This document shows positions 33,336-39,093 of a stretch of DNA of 55,537 bases, in pieces. This DNA is from Rhizobiaceae bacterium (lineage in GTDB: Bacteria > Pseudomonadota > Alphaproteobacteria > Rhizobiales > Rhizobiaceae). The notes beneath the pieces were generated by a model. That model did no database searches. It worked only from the letters and a program-made list of their open reading frames with translations, and had not been told where the DNA came from. The stretch is taken from assembly GCA_014238155.1 (NCBI GenBank), contig JABABQ010000033.1, forward strand, positions 1 through 55,537, read 5' to 3'. The position numbers were made by a program, and so were the translations under genes. Each line of letters opens with the position of its first letter. The first letter of the stretch is position 1.

Positions 33336-33435
33336 TTGGTAATTGCAAGATGAGTCGGAAAGCGCTAGTGAATGCGCCAATCCTGCCGCCTGTCGTGCAA
33401 CTCACCCCTTCTCATTCTCAAAGGAAACGACAACA

Positions 33436-33711
33436 GTGTCTACTTTTGACAAAGTCGCCGATATAATTTCAGAAACCAGCGAGATTCCCCGCGAGGAAAT
33501 CACTACCGATAGCCACACGATCGATGATCTGGGTATCGACAGCCTGGACTTTTTGGACATCGTATTCGCCATCGACAAAGAATTCGGCATCAAGATTCCG
33601 ATGGAAGCCTGGACCGAAGAAGTTAACAATGGCAACGCTTCAACTGAAGATTATTTCGTCATGAAAAACCTCTGCACCCGCATCGATGAACTGGCTGCTG
33701 CCAAAGCATAA
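33436..33711 (+). CDS. acpXL: acyl carrier protein AcpXL for lipid A very-long-chain fatty acid
   Basis: The 91-residue protein is a dedicated acyl carrier protein. The phosphopantetheine serine is residue 36 in [11 protein letters not shown] chose the GTG at 33436, preceded by AAGGAAA, because the product then has AcpXL length; the frame remains open upstream but that part looks non-coding. AcpXL carries the 27-hydroxyoctacosanoate-type chain that is built by the following enzymes and attached to lipid A. This long acyl chain is characteristic of Rhizobiales outer membranes. It is the first gene of a six-gene set. Confidence 0.94.
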
Positions 33712-33746
33712 TCATGGCTGTCGGTCAGCAGCATTAGGGGCAGAAG

Positions 33747-34214
33747 ATGGAACTTGAACGTTTTCAGATGATCGACCGGATCGTTTCGGTCAATGATGAC
33801 GTGACGGTGCTCACTGCCCGCTCCACAGTGCCCCAGAAAAGTCTTGTCTTTGAAGGCCATTTTCCGGGCCTGCCACTGGTTCCCGGCGTCTTGCTGATCG
33901 AAACCATGGCACAGGCTTCGGGTTTTCTGGTGCTGGCAAAAACCCGTTTTGAAGCAATGCCATTCCTGGTTGGTGTCAAACAGGGAAAACTGCGCACATT
34001 TGTTGAGCCGACCACTGAACTCGACATTGAAGCCCGGTTGGAACATGACGGGTCTGGCTTTGCGATGACCCGTGCGACCATCAGTTCGGCGGGTAAAAAA
34101 ATCTGCGATGCGCAACTGACGCTGAAAACCATGGCATTTCCAAATGACACGTTTGGCCAGATGATTATAAACCGGGCCAGACAGTTAAACTGCCCGGAAC
34201 ATCTTCTGCGCTAA
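33747..34214 (+). CDS. fabZXL: 3-hydroxyacyl-ACP dehydratase, FabZ type, VLCFA locus
   Basis: The 155-residue hot-dog-fold enzyme carries the FabZ active-site pattern GHFPGLPLVPGVLLIETMAQ, with the catalytic His and Glu both visible. It dehydrates 3-hydroxyacyl-AcpXL during chain extension. The length and FVGV-like later strand fit FabZ. It starts 35 bp after acpXL and is very likely co-transcribed with it. Confidence 0.92.
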   Translation: MELERFQMIDRIVSVNDDVTVLTARSTVPQKSLVFEGHFPGLPLVPGVLLIETMAQASGFLVLAKTRFEAMPFLVGVKQGKLRTFVEPTTELDIEARLEHDGSGFAMTRATISSAGKKICDAQLTLKTMAFPNDTFGQMIINRARQLNCPEHLLR

Positions 34215-34310
34215 ATCACTAACCTGCACTTGACCACTAGCCGAACCGGCGTTTCGGCATTAATGGTTGCTTCGCAAATCTAATTACCAACTCGCTTTGG
34301 GAGCCTTATC

Positions 34311-35498
34311 ATGGGCGATACTTCAAATCCCGTCTGGATAACTGGCATTGGCCTTCTGTCCGCATTGGGAGAAGGCACTCAATCCCATTGGCAGGCCATG
34401 AATCAGGCCAATCCGGACAATCTGGAAAACCAGCGTTTTGCCCCCTATTGCGTGCACAAGCTGGGCGAGGTTGACTGGACACAACAGATTTCCCGGCGCG
34501 ACATGCGTCAGATGGAACCCTGGCAGCAGATTGGCACCTATACGGCCGGGCTTGCTCTGGATGATGCAGACGCAAAACAAGATGCCGAACTGGTGGGCCG
34601 CATGGACATGATCGTCGCTGCTGGCGGTGGTGAACGCGACATTGAAGTTGACAGTGCCATCATGGCAGATGCGCGCGCCTCCAATGACCGCGAAGCCTTG
34701 CTGACCGAACGCCTGTCAAATGATCTGCGCCCCACCTTGTTTCTTGCCCAATTGTCGAACCTGCTGGCCGGCAATATATCCATCGTCCACAAGGTCACCG
34801 GCTCGTCGCGCACCTTTATGGGTGAAGAGGGCGCAGGCATATCGGCAATCAAAACCGCTCACGCGCGCATAGCATCAGGACAAAGCGACATCGTTCTCGT
34901 TGGTGGTGCGTTCAATGCTGAACGCGAAGACATGCTTTTGTTGTTTGAACTGGGTCAATATCTCGCCGAGGGTGACTTTCAGCCGGTCTGGAGCCGAGCC
35001 GGAGATACAGCAGGGGTAAATCTTGGATCGATTGGCGCATTTCTGGTGCTTGAATCTGCAGAACATGCACGCAAACGCGGTGCCACACCCTATGCTGAAC
35101 TGGCCGCTGTTGAGGTTGACCATGGTCGCCGTGATCCGGGTGCCGCCACCGGTCGCCTGAGCGCAGCACTGTCTGCGCTGACGGATGATAAGCCTGATGC
35201 GATCCTGTCCGGCGCCAGCGGGGTCGAAGACATTACCAATGAAGAACGCGACTGGTTGAATAAAACCCTGCCGAACACACCCTGCCGCGCCTTTGGCAGT
35301 GTGACCGGCCATGGGGTTGAAGCCCATTTTCCGCTGGGCATTGCGCTGGCGGCGATTGCCACCCGGCACGCAGCCTTCTATGACCCGCTGGAAGCAACCG
35401 AACAAGCCACGTCACAAACACCTTCAAATATTCTGGTGACGGCGGTCGGACATTACCGGGCCGAAGGCCTGGGGCTGGTCAAACCCGTCAGCCAATAA
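34311..35498 (+). CDS. fabF2XL: 3-oxoacyl-ACP synthase homologue lacking the active-site cysteine (FabF2XL)
   Basis: The 395-residue protein has the thiolase fold of KAS II but not its catalytic triad. Where FabF has TACASG, this protein has VTGSSRTFMG (about residues 162-171), with serine in place of cysteine. The histidine motifs are also altered: VTGHGVEAHFPLG keeps one His, and the usual NAHGTxTxxND block is absent. This makes it a partner subunit rather than an active synthase, comparable with the chain-length factor of polyketide KS-CLF pairs. It is followed 12 bp later by the catalytically complete FabF1XL, with which it probably forms a heterodimer. Confidence 0.9.
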   Translation: MGDTSNPVWITGIGLLSALGEGTQSHWQAMNQANPDNLENQRFAPYCVHKLGEVDWTQQISRRDMRQMEPWQQIGTYTAGLALDDADAKQDAELVGRMDMIVAAGGGERDIEVDSAIMADARASNDREALLTERLSNDLRPTLFLAQLSNLLAGNISIVHKVTGSSRTFMGEEGAGISAIKTAHARIASGQSDIVLVGGAFNAEREDMLLLFELGQYLAEGDFQPVWSRAGDTAGVNLGSIGAFLVLESAEHARKRGATPYAELAAVEVDHGRRDPGAATGRLSAALSALTDDKPDAILSGASGVEDITNEERDWLNKTLPNTPCRAFGSVTGHGVEAHFPLGIALAAIATRHAAFYDPLEATEQATSQTPSNILVTAVGHYRAEGLGLVKPVSQ

Positions 35499-35510
35499 GG
35501 AGGCCGCAAC

Positions 35511-36788
35511 ATGAGTGCTACCGATCATAAAGGTCGTCCCATCATTGCCGTCACCGGCATCGGAGTTGTTTCATCGCTGGGCAAAGGCAAGAAACAGAAC
35601 TGGGACAAATTGACCAGCGGTGAATCCGGCATTCACCGCATCAGCCGCTTCACCAATGAAGGTCTGAAGACCACCATTGCGGGCACTGTCGACTTCATGG
35701 ATCTTGCCCCCCATTCGGCCCCCGAATTGTCGCTCGCACTGGCCCGCAGCGCGGCGCATGAGGCGGTAACCGAATCCGGCATTGAACAGGGCGACTTTCC
35801 CGGCCCGCTGTTTCTTGCAGCTCCACCAGTGGAGATCGAATGGCAACACCGGTTTGAACTGGATGCAGAACTGCCAAAAGGCCAGCGTGACGGTTATGCC
35901 AGACTGTTGGAGGCCAGCCGGAAAAAACGTCATCAGGCGATGTACGAACTGTTGCAGTTTAACCGCACCGCAGATTTGCTGTCCGATGAATTTGGAACCA
36001 AAGGCCTTCCTGTTTCCTTATCGACGGCCTGCGCATCCGGCGCAACCGCAGTTCAACTGGGAGTTGAGGCCATCCGCCGGGGCGACAGCGAATGTGCCCT
36101 GTGCATTGGCACGGACGGCTCGGTGACCACGGAATCGCTGATCCGTTTTTCCCTGCTGTCTGCCCTGACCACCCAAAATGACGAACCAACCAGGGCGGCC
36201 AAACCGTTTTCCAAGGACCGCGATGGCTTTGTCATGGCCGAAGGAGCTGGAGCTCTGGTGCTTGAATCGCTGGATCACGCACGGGCACGCGGCGCCAATA
36301 TTCTGGCGATTGTGCGGGGCTGCGGCGAAAAGGCTGACCATTTCCATCGCACCCGTTCTTCGCCCGACGGATCACCTGTGATTGCCGCTGTTCATCGGGC
36401 CCTGGAAGATGCAGGCGTCAGCGCCGATGAAATCGATTATATCAATGCGCATGGCACATCGACGCCGGAAAATGACCGCATGGAGTATAATTCGCTGAAG
36501 GAAGTGTTTGGCGACGCGATCCACCAAACGCCCATCTCGTCCAACAAATCGATGATCGGCCATACGCTGACGGCTGCCGGCGCAATTGAAGCAGTATTCT
36601 CCGTGCTGACGCTACAGCATGGCCTCATCCCACCGACCATCAATTATGATACACCCGATCCGGATATTCCCCTTGATGTGGTTCCACATCAGGCACGGAA
36701 GGCCAAGGTCACCAATATCCTGTCCAATTCTTTCGGCTTTGGCGGGCAAAATGCCTGTCTTGTGCTGAGCAATGAAATTGAAGCCTGA
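35511..36788 (+). CDS. fabF1XL: 3-oxoacyl-ACP synthase II (FabF1XL)
   Basis: The 425-residue condensing enzyme has an intact triad: Cys in STACASGATAVQLG, His in NAHGTSTPENDRMEY, and His in SNKSMIGHTLTAAGA. It extends the acyl chain on AcpXL with malonyl units. An AAGGAGGCCGC Shine-Dalgarno sequence precedes the ATG. It is paired with the cysteine-less FabF2XL. A C-terminal SNSFGFGGQNACLVL segment is typical of KAS II. Confidence 0.95.
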   Translation: MSATDHKGRPIIAVTGIGVVSSLGKGKKQNWDKLTSGESGIHRISRFTNEGLKTTIAGTVDFMDLAPHSAPELSLALARSAAHEAVTESGIEQGDFPGPLFLAAPPVEIEWQHRFELDAELPKGQRDGYARLLEASRKKRHQAMYELLQFNRTADLLSDEFGTKGLPVSLSTACASGATAVQLGVEAIRRGDSECALCIGTDGSVTTESLIRFSLLSALTTQNDEPTRAAKPFSKDRDGFVMAEGAGALVLESLDHARARGANILAIVRGCGEKADHFHRTRSSPDGSPVIAAVHRALEDAGVSADEIDYINAHGTSTPENDRMEYNSLKEVFGDAIHQTPISSNKSMIGHTLTAAGAIEAVFSVLTLQHGLIPPTINYDTPDPDIPLDVVPHQARKAKVTNILSNSFGFGGQNACLVLSNEIEA

Positions 36789-36817: not shown

Positions 36818-37846
36818 ATGCGCGCATTGCAACTTGTATCCAACCGTGAAGTAAAACCGGTGGATCTGGCCGAACCGGAGGCCCCGGCTCCCGGCGAAGT
36901 CACCCTGAAAATCCGCGTTGTGGCGCTCAATCATCTCGATGTTTGGGGATGGCGCGGCATGGCCTTTGCCAAACGCAAACTACCGCTCACGATTGGTGCA
37001 GAAGCAAGCGCTGAAGTTGTTGCTTTGGGCGAAGGTGTATCGGGCCTGAAACCCGGCCAGCTGGTATCCATATTCGGCGCCCGCACCTGCGGCACCTGTC
37101 ACGATTGCCGTGCTGGGCGCGATAACATGTGCGACCATGTTGAAGGCGTTCACGGTTTTCATCTTGACGGTTTTGCCCAGGATCTGATCAATCTGCCAGC
37201 CCGCCAGTGTGTTGCAGCACCTGCCGGTTGCGATGATGTCGGCGCGGCTCTCGCCCCGATTACCTTTGGCACTTGCGAGCATATGTTGTTTGACAACGCT
37301 TTGCTGCAACCCTCTGAAACGATTCTCATTCAGGCTGGTGGCTCCGGCATCGGAACTGCTGCTATCCAATTGGCCAAGTCGATTGGCTGCACGGTCATTA
37401 CTACCGTTGGCAGCGACGACAAGATCGAGCCTGCCCGAGCACTCGGCGCCGACCACGTCATCAACTATCGCGAAGACCGGTTTGAAGGCGTGGTGCGCAA
37501 ACTGACCAAGAAGCAGGGCGTGGATGTTGTCTTTGAACATGTCGGCAAGGAAACATGGGCCGGGTCGATGCTGTGCATGAAACGCGGAGGTCGCCTTGTG
37601 ACCTGTGGTTCGACCAGCGGCATGTCCGCAGATACCAATCTGATGATGCTGTTTCAGCGCCAGTTGCGGCTTATCGGCTCATTCGGTTGCACGATGCAGA
37701 GCATGACCAGTTCAATGGACAAGATGGCGCGTGGATATGTCAAACCGGTAATTGATACCGAAATCGAATTTGGCGATCTGGCAACTGCTCTGGAACGCAT
37801 GGAAAGTCGAAAAGTGTTCGGCAAGATCATCATGCGCATGAACTAG
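36818..37846 (+). CDS. adh2XL: zinc-type alcohol dehydrogenase of the VLCFA locus
   Basis: The 342-residue medium-chain dehydrogenase has the structural zinc site GTCHDCRAGRDNMC and the nucleotide-binding motif AGGSGIGTAAIQLAKS. The catalytic-zinc Cys found in classical ADHs is not obvious near residue 40, where NHLDVWGWRG occurs, so it may act as a quinone-oxidoreductase-like reductase. Orthologues sit in the same place in rhizobial acpXL clusters; the exact step is not established. Its TAG stop is formed at the boundary of the inserted element that follows, which has separated it from lpxXL. Confidence 0.88.
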   Translation: MRALQLVSNREVKPVDLAEPEAPAPGEVTLKIRVVALNHLDVWGWRGMAFAKRKLPLTIGAEASAEVVALGEGVSGLKPGQLVSIFGARTCGTCHDCRAGRDNMCDHVEGVHGFHLDGFAQDLINLPARQCVAAPAGCDDVGAALAPITFGTCEHMLFDNALLQPSETILIQAGGSGIGTAAIQLAKSIGCTVITTVGSDDKIEPARALGADHVINYREDRFEGVVRKLTKKQGVDVVFEHVGKETWAGSMLCMKRGGRLVTCGSTSGMSADTNLMMLFQRQLRLIGSFGCTMQSMTSSMDKMARGYVKPVIDTEIEFGDLATALERMESRKVFGKIIMRMN

Positions 37847-38116
37847 AGCCGTTCATGGTTAAATGGAACCATTCTGCAGGAGCGCTTTTGTGACAGAACC
37901 AAATAAAGGATCGCCAGTCGTATCGGGCATACGTCCAAGAGCCATTGCGCCGTTTATGGTGCAAAAGCGCCCTTCCCGAAGGGTTTGCGATTGGCGGACG
38001 CCCAAAGTCGAGCAGCCCTTGCCCGATGCGAGGGCATCGCGCTGCGTGCGTCTCACCTCTGGATCATCTCGCCAATCACAAACAGAATTAGCTCCATTTA
38101 ATCGTGAACGGCTCTA
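37844..38116. mobile_element. 273-bp TA-flanked MITE inserted in the adh2XL stop codon
   Basis: The left end TAGAGCCGTTCATGGTTAAA and the right end, read inverted, TAGAGCCGTTCACGATTAAA agree closely, and the similarity continues for about 33 bp. Both ends begin with TA, the target duplication expected of IS630/mariner-like transposition. No transposase is encoded. Inner inverted repeats (GATTGGCG/CGCCAATC) make it strongly foldable. Removing one TA and the element restores a TAA stop followed five bases later by the lpxXL ATG. Confidence 0.85.
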
Positions 38117-38121
38117 AACCA

Positions 38122-39093
38122 ATGGCCCGTATCATACGTCATCCCCGGGTCGAGCGAATATTGCTGACCATCAAAACGGCAAAAGACTGGGTTGTTGCCA
38201 AACTGGTCGGACTGTTTGTGCATTTTGCCAAAAAACTGCCGGCAACAACGTCCATCAATACAGCTGAGAAACTGGCGCGTTTCCTGTCACCCGTTCTGCC
38301 GCGCACCGCCCTGACGCGCAGAAATCTGGCGCAGGCCTTTCCTGAAAAATCATCCGCCGAGGTCCGCCAGTTGGCCCGCGGGGTTTGGGGCAATGTCGGT
38401 CGTACAATTGCTGAATATATATTCCTCGATGAGTTGATCGACATCAATCTGGAAAACCCACAGGACGGGCGCATCGAAGTTCACGGGATCGATCAGTTTG
38501 TCAATCTGCGCGAAACCAACCGCCCGGTTGTGATCTTCACCGCCCATACCGGGAACTGGGAAATATTGCCGGTCGCAGCAGCGGCCTATGAACTGACTGT
38601 CACCGCCCTGTTTCGTCCGCCCAATAACCGGTTTCTGGCAAAACGTGTCTTAAAGGCCCGCAGAACTGATGGCGGACATCTTGTGCCGTCGCGTGCTGGT
38701 GCTGCATGGGCATTGGCATCCGTGCTGGAAAACAACGGTGCTGTCGGCCTGCTGTCAGATCAGGCATTTACCCGCGGCCCGCGGGTAAATTTTATGGGTC
38801 GCGAGGCGACCGCCAACCCGCTGGCTGCCAAGCTGGCACGCCAGTTTGACTGCGACATCCATCCGGCCCGCTGTGTGCGCCTGCCAAACGGAAGATTTAA
38901 GATCGAGCTGCAAGGGCCGATTGAAATTCCAAGACATGACGATGGCACGGTCGATGTGACAGCAACCACCCAGGAACTCGCGGACATTGTTGAATCCTGG
39001 GTGCGCGAATATCCCGAGCAATGGCTCTGGCTTCATGATCGCTGGAAGATCAAGACACCACCTCCCGGCAAACGCCGCCGGACGAAATTCTGA
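38122..39093 (+). CDS. lpxXL: lipid A very-long-chain acyltransferase (LpxXL)
   Basis: The 323-residue protein is a lysophospholipid-acyltransferase (HtrB/LpxL) family member. The catalytic H-x4-E is visible in FTAHTGNWEILP, and the following block LSDQAFTRGPRVNFMGREA is a family signature. It transfers the C28 hydroxy acid from AcpXL to lipid A at the inner membrane. The ATG at 38122 gives the natural N-terminus (MARIIRHPRV). The in-frame GTG at 38104 lies inside the inserted element and is unlikely. No good Shine-Dalgarno remains, so translation may depend on the altered leader. Convergent with soeC after 12 bp. Confidence 0.92.
   Translation: MARIIRHPRVERILLTIKTAKDWVVAKLVGLFVHFAKKLPATTSINTAEKLARFLSPVLPRTALTRRNLAQAFPEKSSAEVRQLARGVWGNVGRTIAEYIFLDELIDINLENPQDGRIEVHGIDQFVNLRETNRPVVIFTAHTGNWEILPVAAAAYELTVTALFRPPNNRFLAKRVLKARRTDGGHLVPSRAGAAWALASVLENNGAVGLLSDQAFTRGPRVNFMGREATANPLAAKLARQFDCDIHPARCVRLPNGRFKIELQGPIEIPRHDDGTVDVTATTQELADIVESWVREYPEQWLWLHDRWKIKTPPPGKRRRTKF

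Follow-up and report, generated by a model that had tools for sequence, protein, structure and literature searches.

The junction between adh2XL and lpxXL in a draft Rhizobiaceae genome raises two questions: what is the 273-bp element that separates the two genes, and how could it enter a stop codon within an operon and leave the genes on both sides whole? The stretch analysed (the window) comprises 55,537 nucleotides of contig JABABQ010000033.1, and its open reading frames and family profiles identify the very-long-chain acyl operon. Genes for an AcpXL-type acyl carrier protein, a FabZ-like dehydratase and two ketoacyl-ACP synthases (33343..36788, + strand) precede adh2XL (36818..37846, + strand), an ORF with Pfam ADH domains that encodes a zinc-dependent alcohol dehydrogenase of 342 aa. 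Beyond the element lies lpxXL (38122..39093, + strand), encoding the lipid A very-long-chain acyltransferase (323 aa) and intact according to the ORF list and dN/dS. The gene names in the operon agree with the profile matches, lpxXL matching the lipid A acyltransferase model PRK06553 above its cut-off.

The insertion at the adh2XL–lpxXL junction

The element is a MITE that occupies 37844..38116 on the + strand, both TA copies included, as delimited by its inverted repeats, by 16 near-full genome copies and by a covariance model; the first-pass annotation, made from the letters of the window, had given the same boundaries and length. It had also described terminal inverted repeats (TIRs) of about 33 bp beginning with TA. 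Indeed, both ends carry TA, their outer 24 bp match without gaps at 92%, and a Watson–Crick-only consensus of 47 elements joins them in a 31-pair closing stem with a bulge, of which the left TIR (37844..37876, + strand) forms the 5' side and the right TIR (38083..38116, + strand) the 3' side. Between the TIRs, the consensus structure places hairpin 1 (hp1; 37877..37974), annotated on the + strand for its greater stability there across the family, a short central hairpin CCC-GAA-GGG (37975..37983, + strand; position also set by the coordinates), and hairpin 2 (hp2; 37984..38082), annotated on the − strand for the same reason. The longest ORF inside the element has 84 aa (37863-38117), and the ORF list revealed no transposase gene between the TIRs. 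The region contained no consensus promoter or terminator, the promoter scan being of the E. coli type, which may not apply to this host. An Rfam scan of 37700-38250 gave no match up to E 1, and the element had no match in the phage and plasmid collections searched. The element is not a chance arrangement, since its fold z-scores are −7.0 and −9.5 on its two strands, 16 near-full copies exist, and 62+63 TIR-like sites were found in the source genome against 12+16 for a reversed-pattern control.

When 15 genomes of the genus were searched at the protein level, 14 proved to have adh2XL, one of them the source genome itself; the element was absent from the adh2XL–lpxXL junction in all 13 others, where the gap from stop to start is 3-11 nt (start codons inferred by eye). 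This junction comparison within the genus bears out the earlier proposal of a recent, TA-targeted insertion. Because the adh2XL stop falls at the same codon in 13/13 congeners, one TA is native; from the joined flanks and the congener junctions, the target was CTAA and the duplicated TA lies at 37844..37845 and 38115..38116. Taking out one TA gives the sequence ATGAAC-TAA-ACCA-ATGGCC, in which four bases, not five as first counted, separate the restored stop from the lpxXL ATG. As the annotation had stated, TAA became TAG in frame (37844-37846, + strand; target TA followed by the element's first G) and adh2XL kept its length, while 275 nt now separate this TAG from the lpxXL ATG at 38122. Its claim that lpxXL lost most of a native leader holds only in part: the close spacing is gone, but the native gap was merely 4 nt and offered no long leader, so the loss consists of close spacing and possibly of translational coupling. 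The closest congener (G002) carries TAG-AGCCG-ATG at this junction, which equals the first eight bases of the MITE end exactly and may be the trace of a former excision or deletion, or a coincidence; the junction of G006 reads TGA-GCCG-GTG.

The earlier annotation had gone on to suggest that the insertion could change how much lipid A receives the C28 chain. That it lowers lpxXL expression and hence the amount of long acyl chain on lipid A is an outcome that we can entertain only tentatively. The tight stop–start junction of 13/13 congeners has indeed been replaced by a 275-nt structured spacer. Set against this are the absence of a promoter inside the element in the E. coli-type scan, which may not apply here, and the state of the gene itself: LpxXL is identical to that of G002 at 294/323 positions with a dN/dS of ~0.06, intact and constrained, although much of this divergence may predate the insertion. 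We infer that adh2XL would gain a new 3' end and that the 275 nt of structured RNA before lpxXL would probably end translational coupling, and any effect on lpxXL is to be read in the same conditional sense. The ORF list also contains an in-frame GTG for lpxXL at 38104, inside the right TIR.

Distribution of the family and landing in stop codons

Other copies with matching ends had been named as a mark of such an insertion, and the source genome contains them. Besides the window copy there are 15 near-full copies with 86-95% identity to it, as well as many solo ends and copies with internal deletions. Joined flanks of 13 of the 16 near-full copies were searched in four congeners. In G002, eight of the 13 align across and all eight sites are empty, with the TA kept in five; the remaining five gave no alignment across and are uninformative. 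Dispersed copies, a target-site duplication and empty sites in a relative (8/13 sites, G002), all expected of a MITE, were thus found together. Six copies (L010-L012 and L014-L016) form a 288-bp subfamily, 15 bp longer than the rest, and the extra insert sits in hp2 of L012. L012 also has a second, reversed terminus directly adjoining the full copy (C43:45162-45181), as though one copy had inserted at the other's end.

The DNA sequence was searched against 61 genomes and gave matches in eight, the source genome included, which span several families. The matched elements are mostly 271-278 bp, two being longer, with ends of the TAGAGC...GCTCTA type, and their inner TIR sequence varies between genera yet stays self-complementary. 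We then used a covariance model built from 15 elements via their RNAalifold structure; the window copy, itself one of the 15, matched it with 270.8 bits over positions 1-275. The model detected the family in 54/249 genomes of the order, 38/215 of the good-quality ones, and in 40/112 genera, as counted with search filters that lose weak matches, and its best relatives are mostly 265-290 bp. A pattern scan of named genomes yielded at least 80 loci, and the model matches 53 of the 80 listed. Carriers among these 53 include Rhizobium oryzicola and R. lemnae as well as MAGs labelled Devosia, Tepidamorphaceae, Rhodobiaceae, Hyphomicrobiales, Rhodospirillaceae and Alphaproteobacteria; the 27 listed loci without a match include four with alphaproteobacterial labels (L249, L256, L269 and L317), the others coming from different phyla, different classes or unnamed bacteria. 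Eight elements of other genera (L119-L126) are more divergent, ~265-269 bp long (one 164) with TAGAGC-type ends, and in some of them the two strands give near-equal model scores, as though each consisted of two similar halves. Neither the order-wide spread of the family with its conserved structure nor the recurrent landing in stop codons described below was foreseen in the first-pass annotation.

The bases next to the elements define the target. At 109 flanks of 55 elements, 37 of which have exact TAGAGC/GCTCTA ends, the base outside the TA is C in 59%, T in 40% and A in 1%, a pyrimidine at 108/109, and 22 further elements have a pyrimidine at 43/44 flanks. These pyrimidine flanks point to YTAR sites with the TA duplicated, and 16/16 near-full copies of the source genome have YTAR targets. 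For 19 of 54 elements (the 55 without L122, which lies at a contig end), the first three bases of the element form the stop of a neighbouring ORF according to a simple ORF caller, 12 times at the left end and seven at the right; three of the 19 ORFs look spurious (L003, L103 and L114). A later set showed the same in 11 of 22 elements, one of which (L265) repeats the LivF-like tail of L107, so that these two are not independent. This set was drawn from 88 model-search rows after removal of rows on the reverse strand, hits truncated at contig ends, short derivatives and L310, a copy of L064. Neighbouring genes were checked in ten of the 19 cases, and each time the match to a family profile reaches the last position of the profile or stops no more than three short of it. 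These ten include IMP dehydrogenase, KDO8P synthase, succinate-CoA ligase alpha and an rRNA methyltransferase; the best NCBIfam models for the genes at L007 and L107 fall below the curated cut-off. At L008 the congeners G002, G003 and G005 end at the same codon, G005 with TGA; at L009 the same end codon is found in G002 and G005, while the alignment of G003 stops at the TA; at L010 the stop of G002 lies one codon later. Where reading continues into an element, the longest tail has a median of 73 aa (55 elements), compared with 56 for shuffled cores.

A landing in TAA or TAG regains the stop because the element begins with TAG. As YTAR can contain TAA or TAG and the element begins with TAG on both strands, a gene hit in its stop codon would be left whole from either side, and such landings would be frequent because they are harmless. 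To what extent does targeting alone account for the counts? A crude ORF caller assigned the YTAR sites in 455 kb of the source genome to 86 stops, 388 intergenic and 895 coding positions. With the tetramers actually used and coding sites excluded, seven of the 16 copies land in stops where 2.8 are expected (P 0.013), or eight of 16 with the doubtful L003 (P 0.003), which leaves a moderate excess once targeting and selection have accounted for much of the pattern. Relative to YTAR sites of the source genome, gaps between convergent genes are favoured (16/54, P 0.03) and divergent ones are less clearly avoided (8/54, P 0.11).

The fold and its two hairpins

The fold of the element is kept by covariation. 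RNAalifold on 15 elements gave 76 pairs, 42 of them with changes on both sides, and a covariation score of 0.481, compared with 0.184 for shuffled alignments; none of 500 shuffles reached it, and slid structures scored 0.064-0.102. The Watson–Crick-only consensus of 47 elements has 102 pairs, made up of the 31-pair closing stem, hp1, the three-pair central hairpin and hp2. Across 19 representatives of clusters below 80% identity, 86.8% of cells pair, and double changes occur in 69/102 pairs, against a mean of 42.5 and a maximum of 50 in shuffles and 29-39 when the structure is slid.

With each element oriented by its better-scoring strand of the covariance model, G:T and A:C mismatches are equal overall (59 vs 65), so that neither strand is favoured over the whole structure. 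A single RNA transcribed from one strand thus finds no support for the element as a whole, and the arms differ in opposite directions. Among 24 clusters, hp1 has 44 G:T against 17 A:C and hp2 19 against 40, with the three central pairs counted in both arms; under random re-pairing the G:T share is 0.51 (sd 0.07) for hp1 and 0.47 (sd 0.08) for hp2, and hp2 taken alone therefore stays within two sd. By cluster, 19 follow this direction, two are opposite and three are tied. For this test, 19 of the later 22 elements and seven of the eight more divergent ones had been added, and five clusters not used before showed the same tendency (hp1 14 vs 4, hp2 2 vs 9), although they are 74-79% identical to earlier clusters, barely under the 80% line. 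Predicted RNA energies agree: hp1 is more stable on the + strand in 22/24 clusters, by 7.7 kcal/mol on average, and hp2 on the − strand in 23/24, by 11.2 kcal/mol, of which dinucleotide shuffles account for 3.2 and 5.7, four to five tenths of the difference. Purines make up 71% of the unpaired bases in the left half and 37% of those in the right. These strand measures are interrelated and the clusters share ancestry.

Both hairpins show the preference on average over the 16 source-genome copies, whereas the window copy shows it in hp2 only (−40.3 kcal/mol on + vs −56.0 on −), the two strands of its hp1 being nearly equal (−31.4 on + vs −31.1 on −). The seven more divergent elements, whose arms align poorly, show no strand pattern (hp1 23 G:T and 27 A:C; hp2 17 and 12). 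The left half aligns with the reverse-complemented right half slightly better than shuffles do (mean z 2.3, 24 clusters), which hints that the element may have originated by inverted duplication of one hairpin module.

The simplest reading is that each hairpin may act as RNA in transcripts entering from its own end. The two ~100-nt hairpins inside the TIRs each bear what look like marks of selection at the level of single-stranded RNA, in each case for the strand that is read from the hairpin's own end inwards, and a gene running into either end would thereby acquire a stop codon followed by a folded 3' RNA. We infer this RNA role from comparison of the copies, and we consider it fairly probable that the window element belongs to an IS630-mobilised MITE family that carries such a two-sided gene-end cassette. 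A stronger version, to which we would not commit ourselves, is that the elements are order-wide mobile gene-end cassettes, with a stop codon and a strand-tuned RNA hairpin at each end, which give genes a ready-made 3' end and persist by serving or sparing both neighbouring transcripts, RNA function thus being selected from two directions within 273 bp.

Could an ordinary selfish MITE produce the same picture? Then only the TIRs would matter, the hairpins would survive through shared ancestry or as foldable DNA that joins the ends, and stop-codon landing would be the sum of YTAR targeting and purifying selection. Stop-codon sites already make up 18% of non-coding YTAR sites, so much of the pattern needs no special mechanism; the strand symmetry of the mismatches overall and the commonness of internally deleted copies and solo ends also fit. 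We nevertheless regard this explanation as rather unlikely, because compensatory changes occur in the inner hairpins across 19 clusters below 80% identity and selection on the ends alone does not predict arm preferences that are opposite and consistent. Transcription-linked mutation from genes on both sides could also produce the strand skews, with no selection on RNA structure: if the non-template strand underwent C-to-T change, G:T would become commoner on the left and A:C on the right, which is the observed pattern. Stems that are 86.8% Watson–Crick paired with many double changes imply that pairing is kept by selection, and the energy differences exceed those of dinucleotide shuffles, which makes mutation an improbable source of the skews. 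The two-sided gene-end cassette remains our preferred reading of the hairpins.

Mobilisation and relation to known repeats

IS630 elements duplicate TA and prefer CTAG. Twelve element-bearing genomes were searched for transposases of the DDE_3 and PF13340 families, and DDE_3 gave 17 hits in seven of them. Two IS630-family elements from other genera, of 1052 bp (G052) and 1048 bp (G061), have facing TAGAGC ends that agree at 15 and 16 of 26 bases; both have overlapping ORFs and are flanked by pyrimidines. A third candidate pair (L174; 544 bp, 11/26 bases alike) was unconvincing and was set aside. The source draft genome (77 contigs) has nine DDE_3 and five PF13340 hits, none with matching TAGAGC ends. 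These sequence comparisons suggest that the window element is a non-autonomous MITE that depends for its movement on an IS630-type transposase acting in trans, from an element with termini beginning TAGAGC. Another mobiliser, such as an enzyme of the IS5 type, a group in which some members likewise prefer YTAR-like targets, is the least likely of the alternatives, for although a Pseudomonas MITE thought to derive from the IS5 family has CTAG or YTAA targets in the account drawn on here (PMC3189936) and DDE_3 is missing from 5/12 element-bearing genomes, the duplication is TA and not four bases, two IS630 elements carry TAGAGC ends, and the 18 PF13340 loci in 7/12 genomes lack matching ends. 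IS5/IS427 was rejected on this last ground; the PF13340 loci include one facing TAGAGC pair 500-2000 bp apart with 8/22 bases alike, and five copies in G182 end CTAAGGCC.

Among the papers listed by the literature search, none could be identified by title or opening abstract lines as a description of this MITE family, in a collection from which subscription journals are mostly absent. By analogy, the family appears to work like RUP, ERIC and Correia, and differs in its length, its opposite-strand hairpins and the breadth of genera. As described in the parts of the sources drawn on, RUP of Streptococcus pneumoniae, related to IS630-Spn1, is likewise non-autonomous, TA-ended, folded and multi-copy with IS630-like ends, but is 107 bp long with a 9-bp TIR and belongs to streptococci, compared with ~273 bp, a 31-pair stem and two inner hairpins in Hyphomicrobiales (PMC2229807, PMC3049150). 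ERIC (127 bp) and Correia, or NEMIS (107 or 155 bp), are also TA-ended and structured, with reported roles in mRNA processing, and belong to other clades; we set them apart by description (PMC2229807). BOX of S. pneumoniae supplies stop codons as the present family does, encoding the stop in 36/58 overlapping CDSs, and is modular with ends that resemble ISSpn2, according to the passages used (PMC3049150). CIR of Caulobacter and Brucella shares an alphaproteobacterial, intergenic setting, two conserved arms and TA ends; it is ~110 bp long with GANTC, and the part of the source drawn on gives no TIR (PMC2229807). Identity with CIR was rejected for its length and because GANTC is absent from the window copy and from 32/47 elements. 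Br-REP1 of Bradyrhizobium, described in part as an alphaproteobacterial palindromic repeat of 3' UTRs with two flanking palindromes (PMC5082802), has a 14-base consensus core that occurs in 0/47 elements of the present family. MITEPsy1 of Pseudomonas syringae likewise has CTAG/YTAA targets, but in the description used it is 100 bp long, duplicates four bases and has ends like those of the IS5-family ISPsy2 (PMC3189936). MiniMdi3 of Methylobacterium, a MITE of the same order with a known autonomous parent, is ~400 bp long and related to ISMdi3 in the portion of its source drawn on, and was also set apart by description (PMC2680597).

MITEs of bacteria are commonly regarded as local debris that does not last long. 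The present family, with elements of similar length in 40/112 sampled genera, a compensated fold and recurrent stop landing in intact genes, looks instead like a transposon that is nearly harmless by design. Should its inward-facing hairpins function as RNA ends, some of the 3' UTRs in Hyphomicrobiales would be of transposon origin, and the effect of insertions within operons, such as that before lpxXL, would be directly testable.

Reduced forms of the element were also observed. Many solo termini measure 20-33 bp, the lower limit being set by the search pattern, and two palindromes of 53-54 bp (L131:736-788 and L136:737-790) consist of two termini with nearly nothing between them. The source genome also contains six copies of an IS200/IS605-like element (L147 on C26, L148 on C18, L149 on C55, and L150-L152), whose ORF, for what we take to be a Y1-type transposase, was seen in L152 only. 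The left end of this element, AGTTCCACTTATTTGG, lies directly against the outer end of a solo MITE terminus in three of the six copies, and two further copies follow TCTA.
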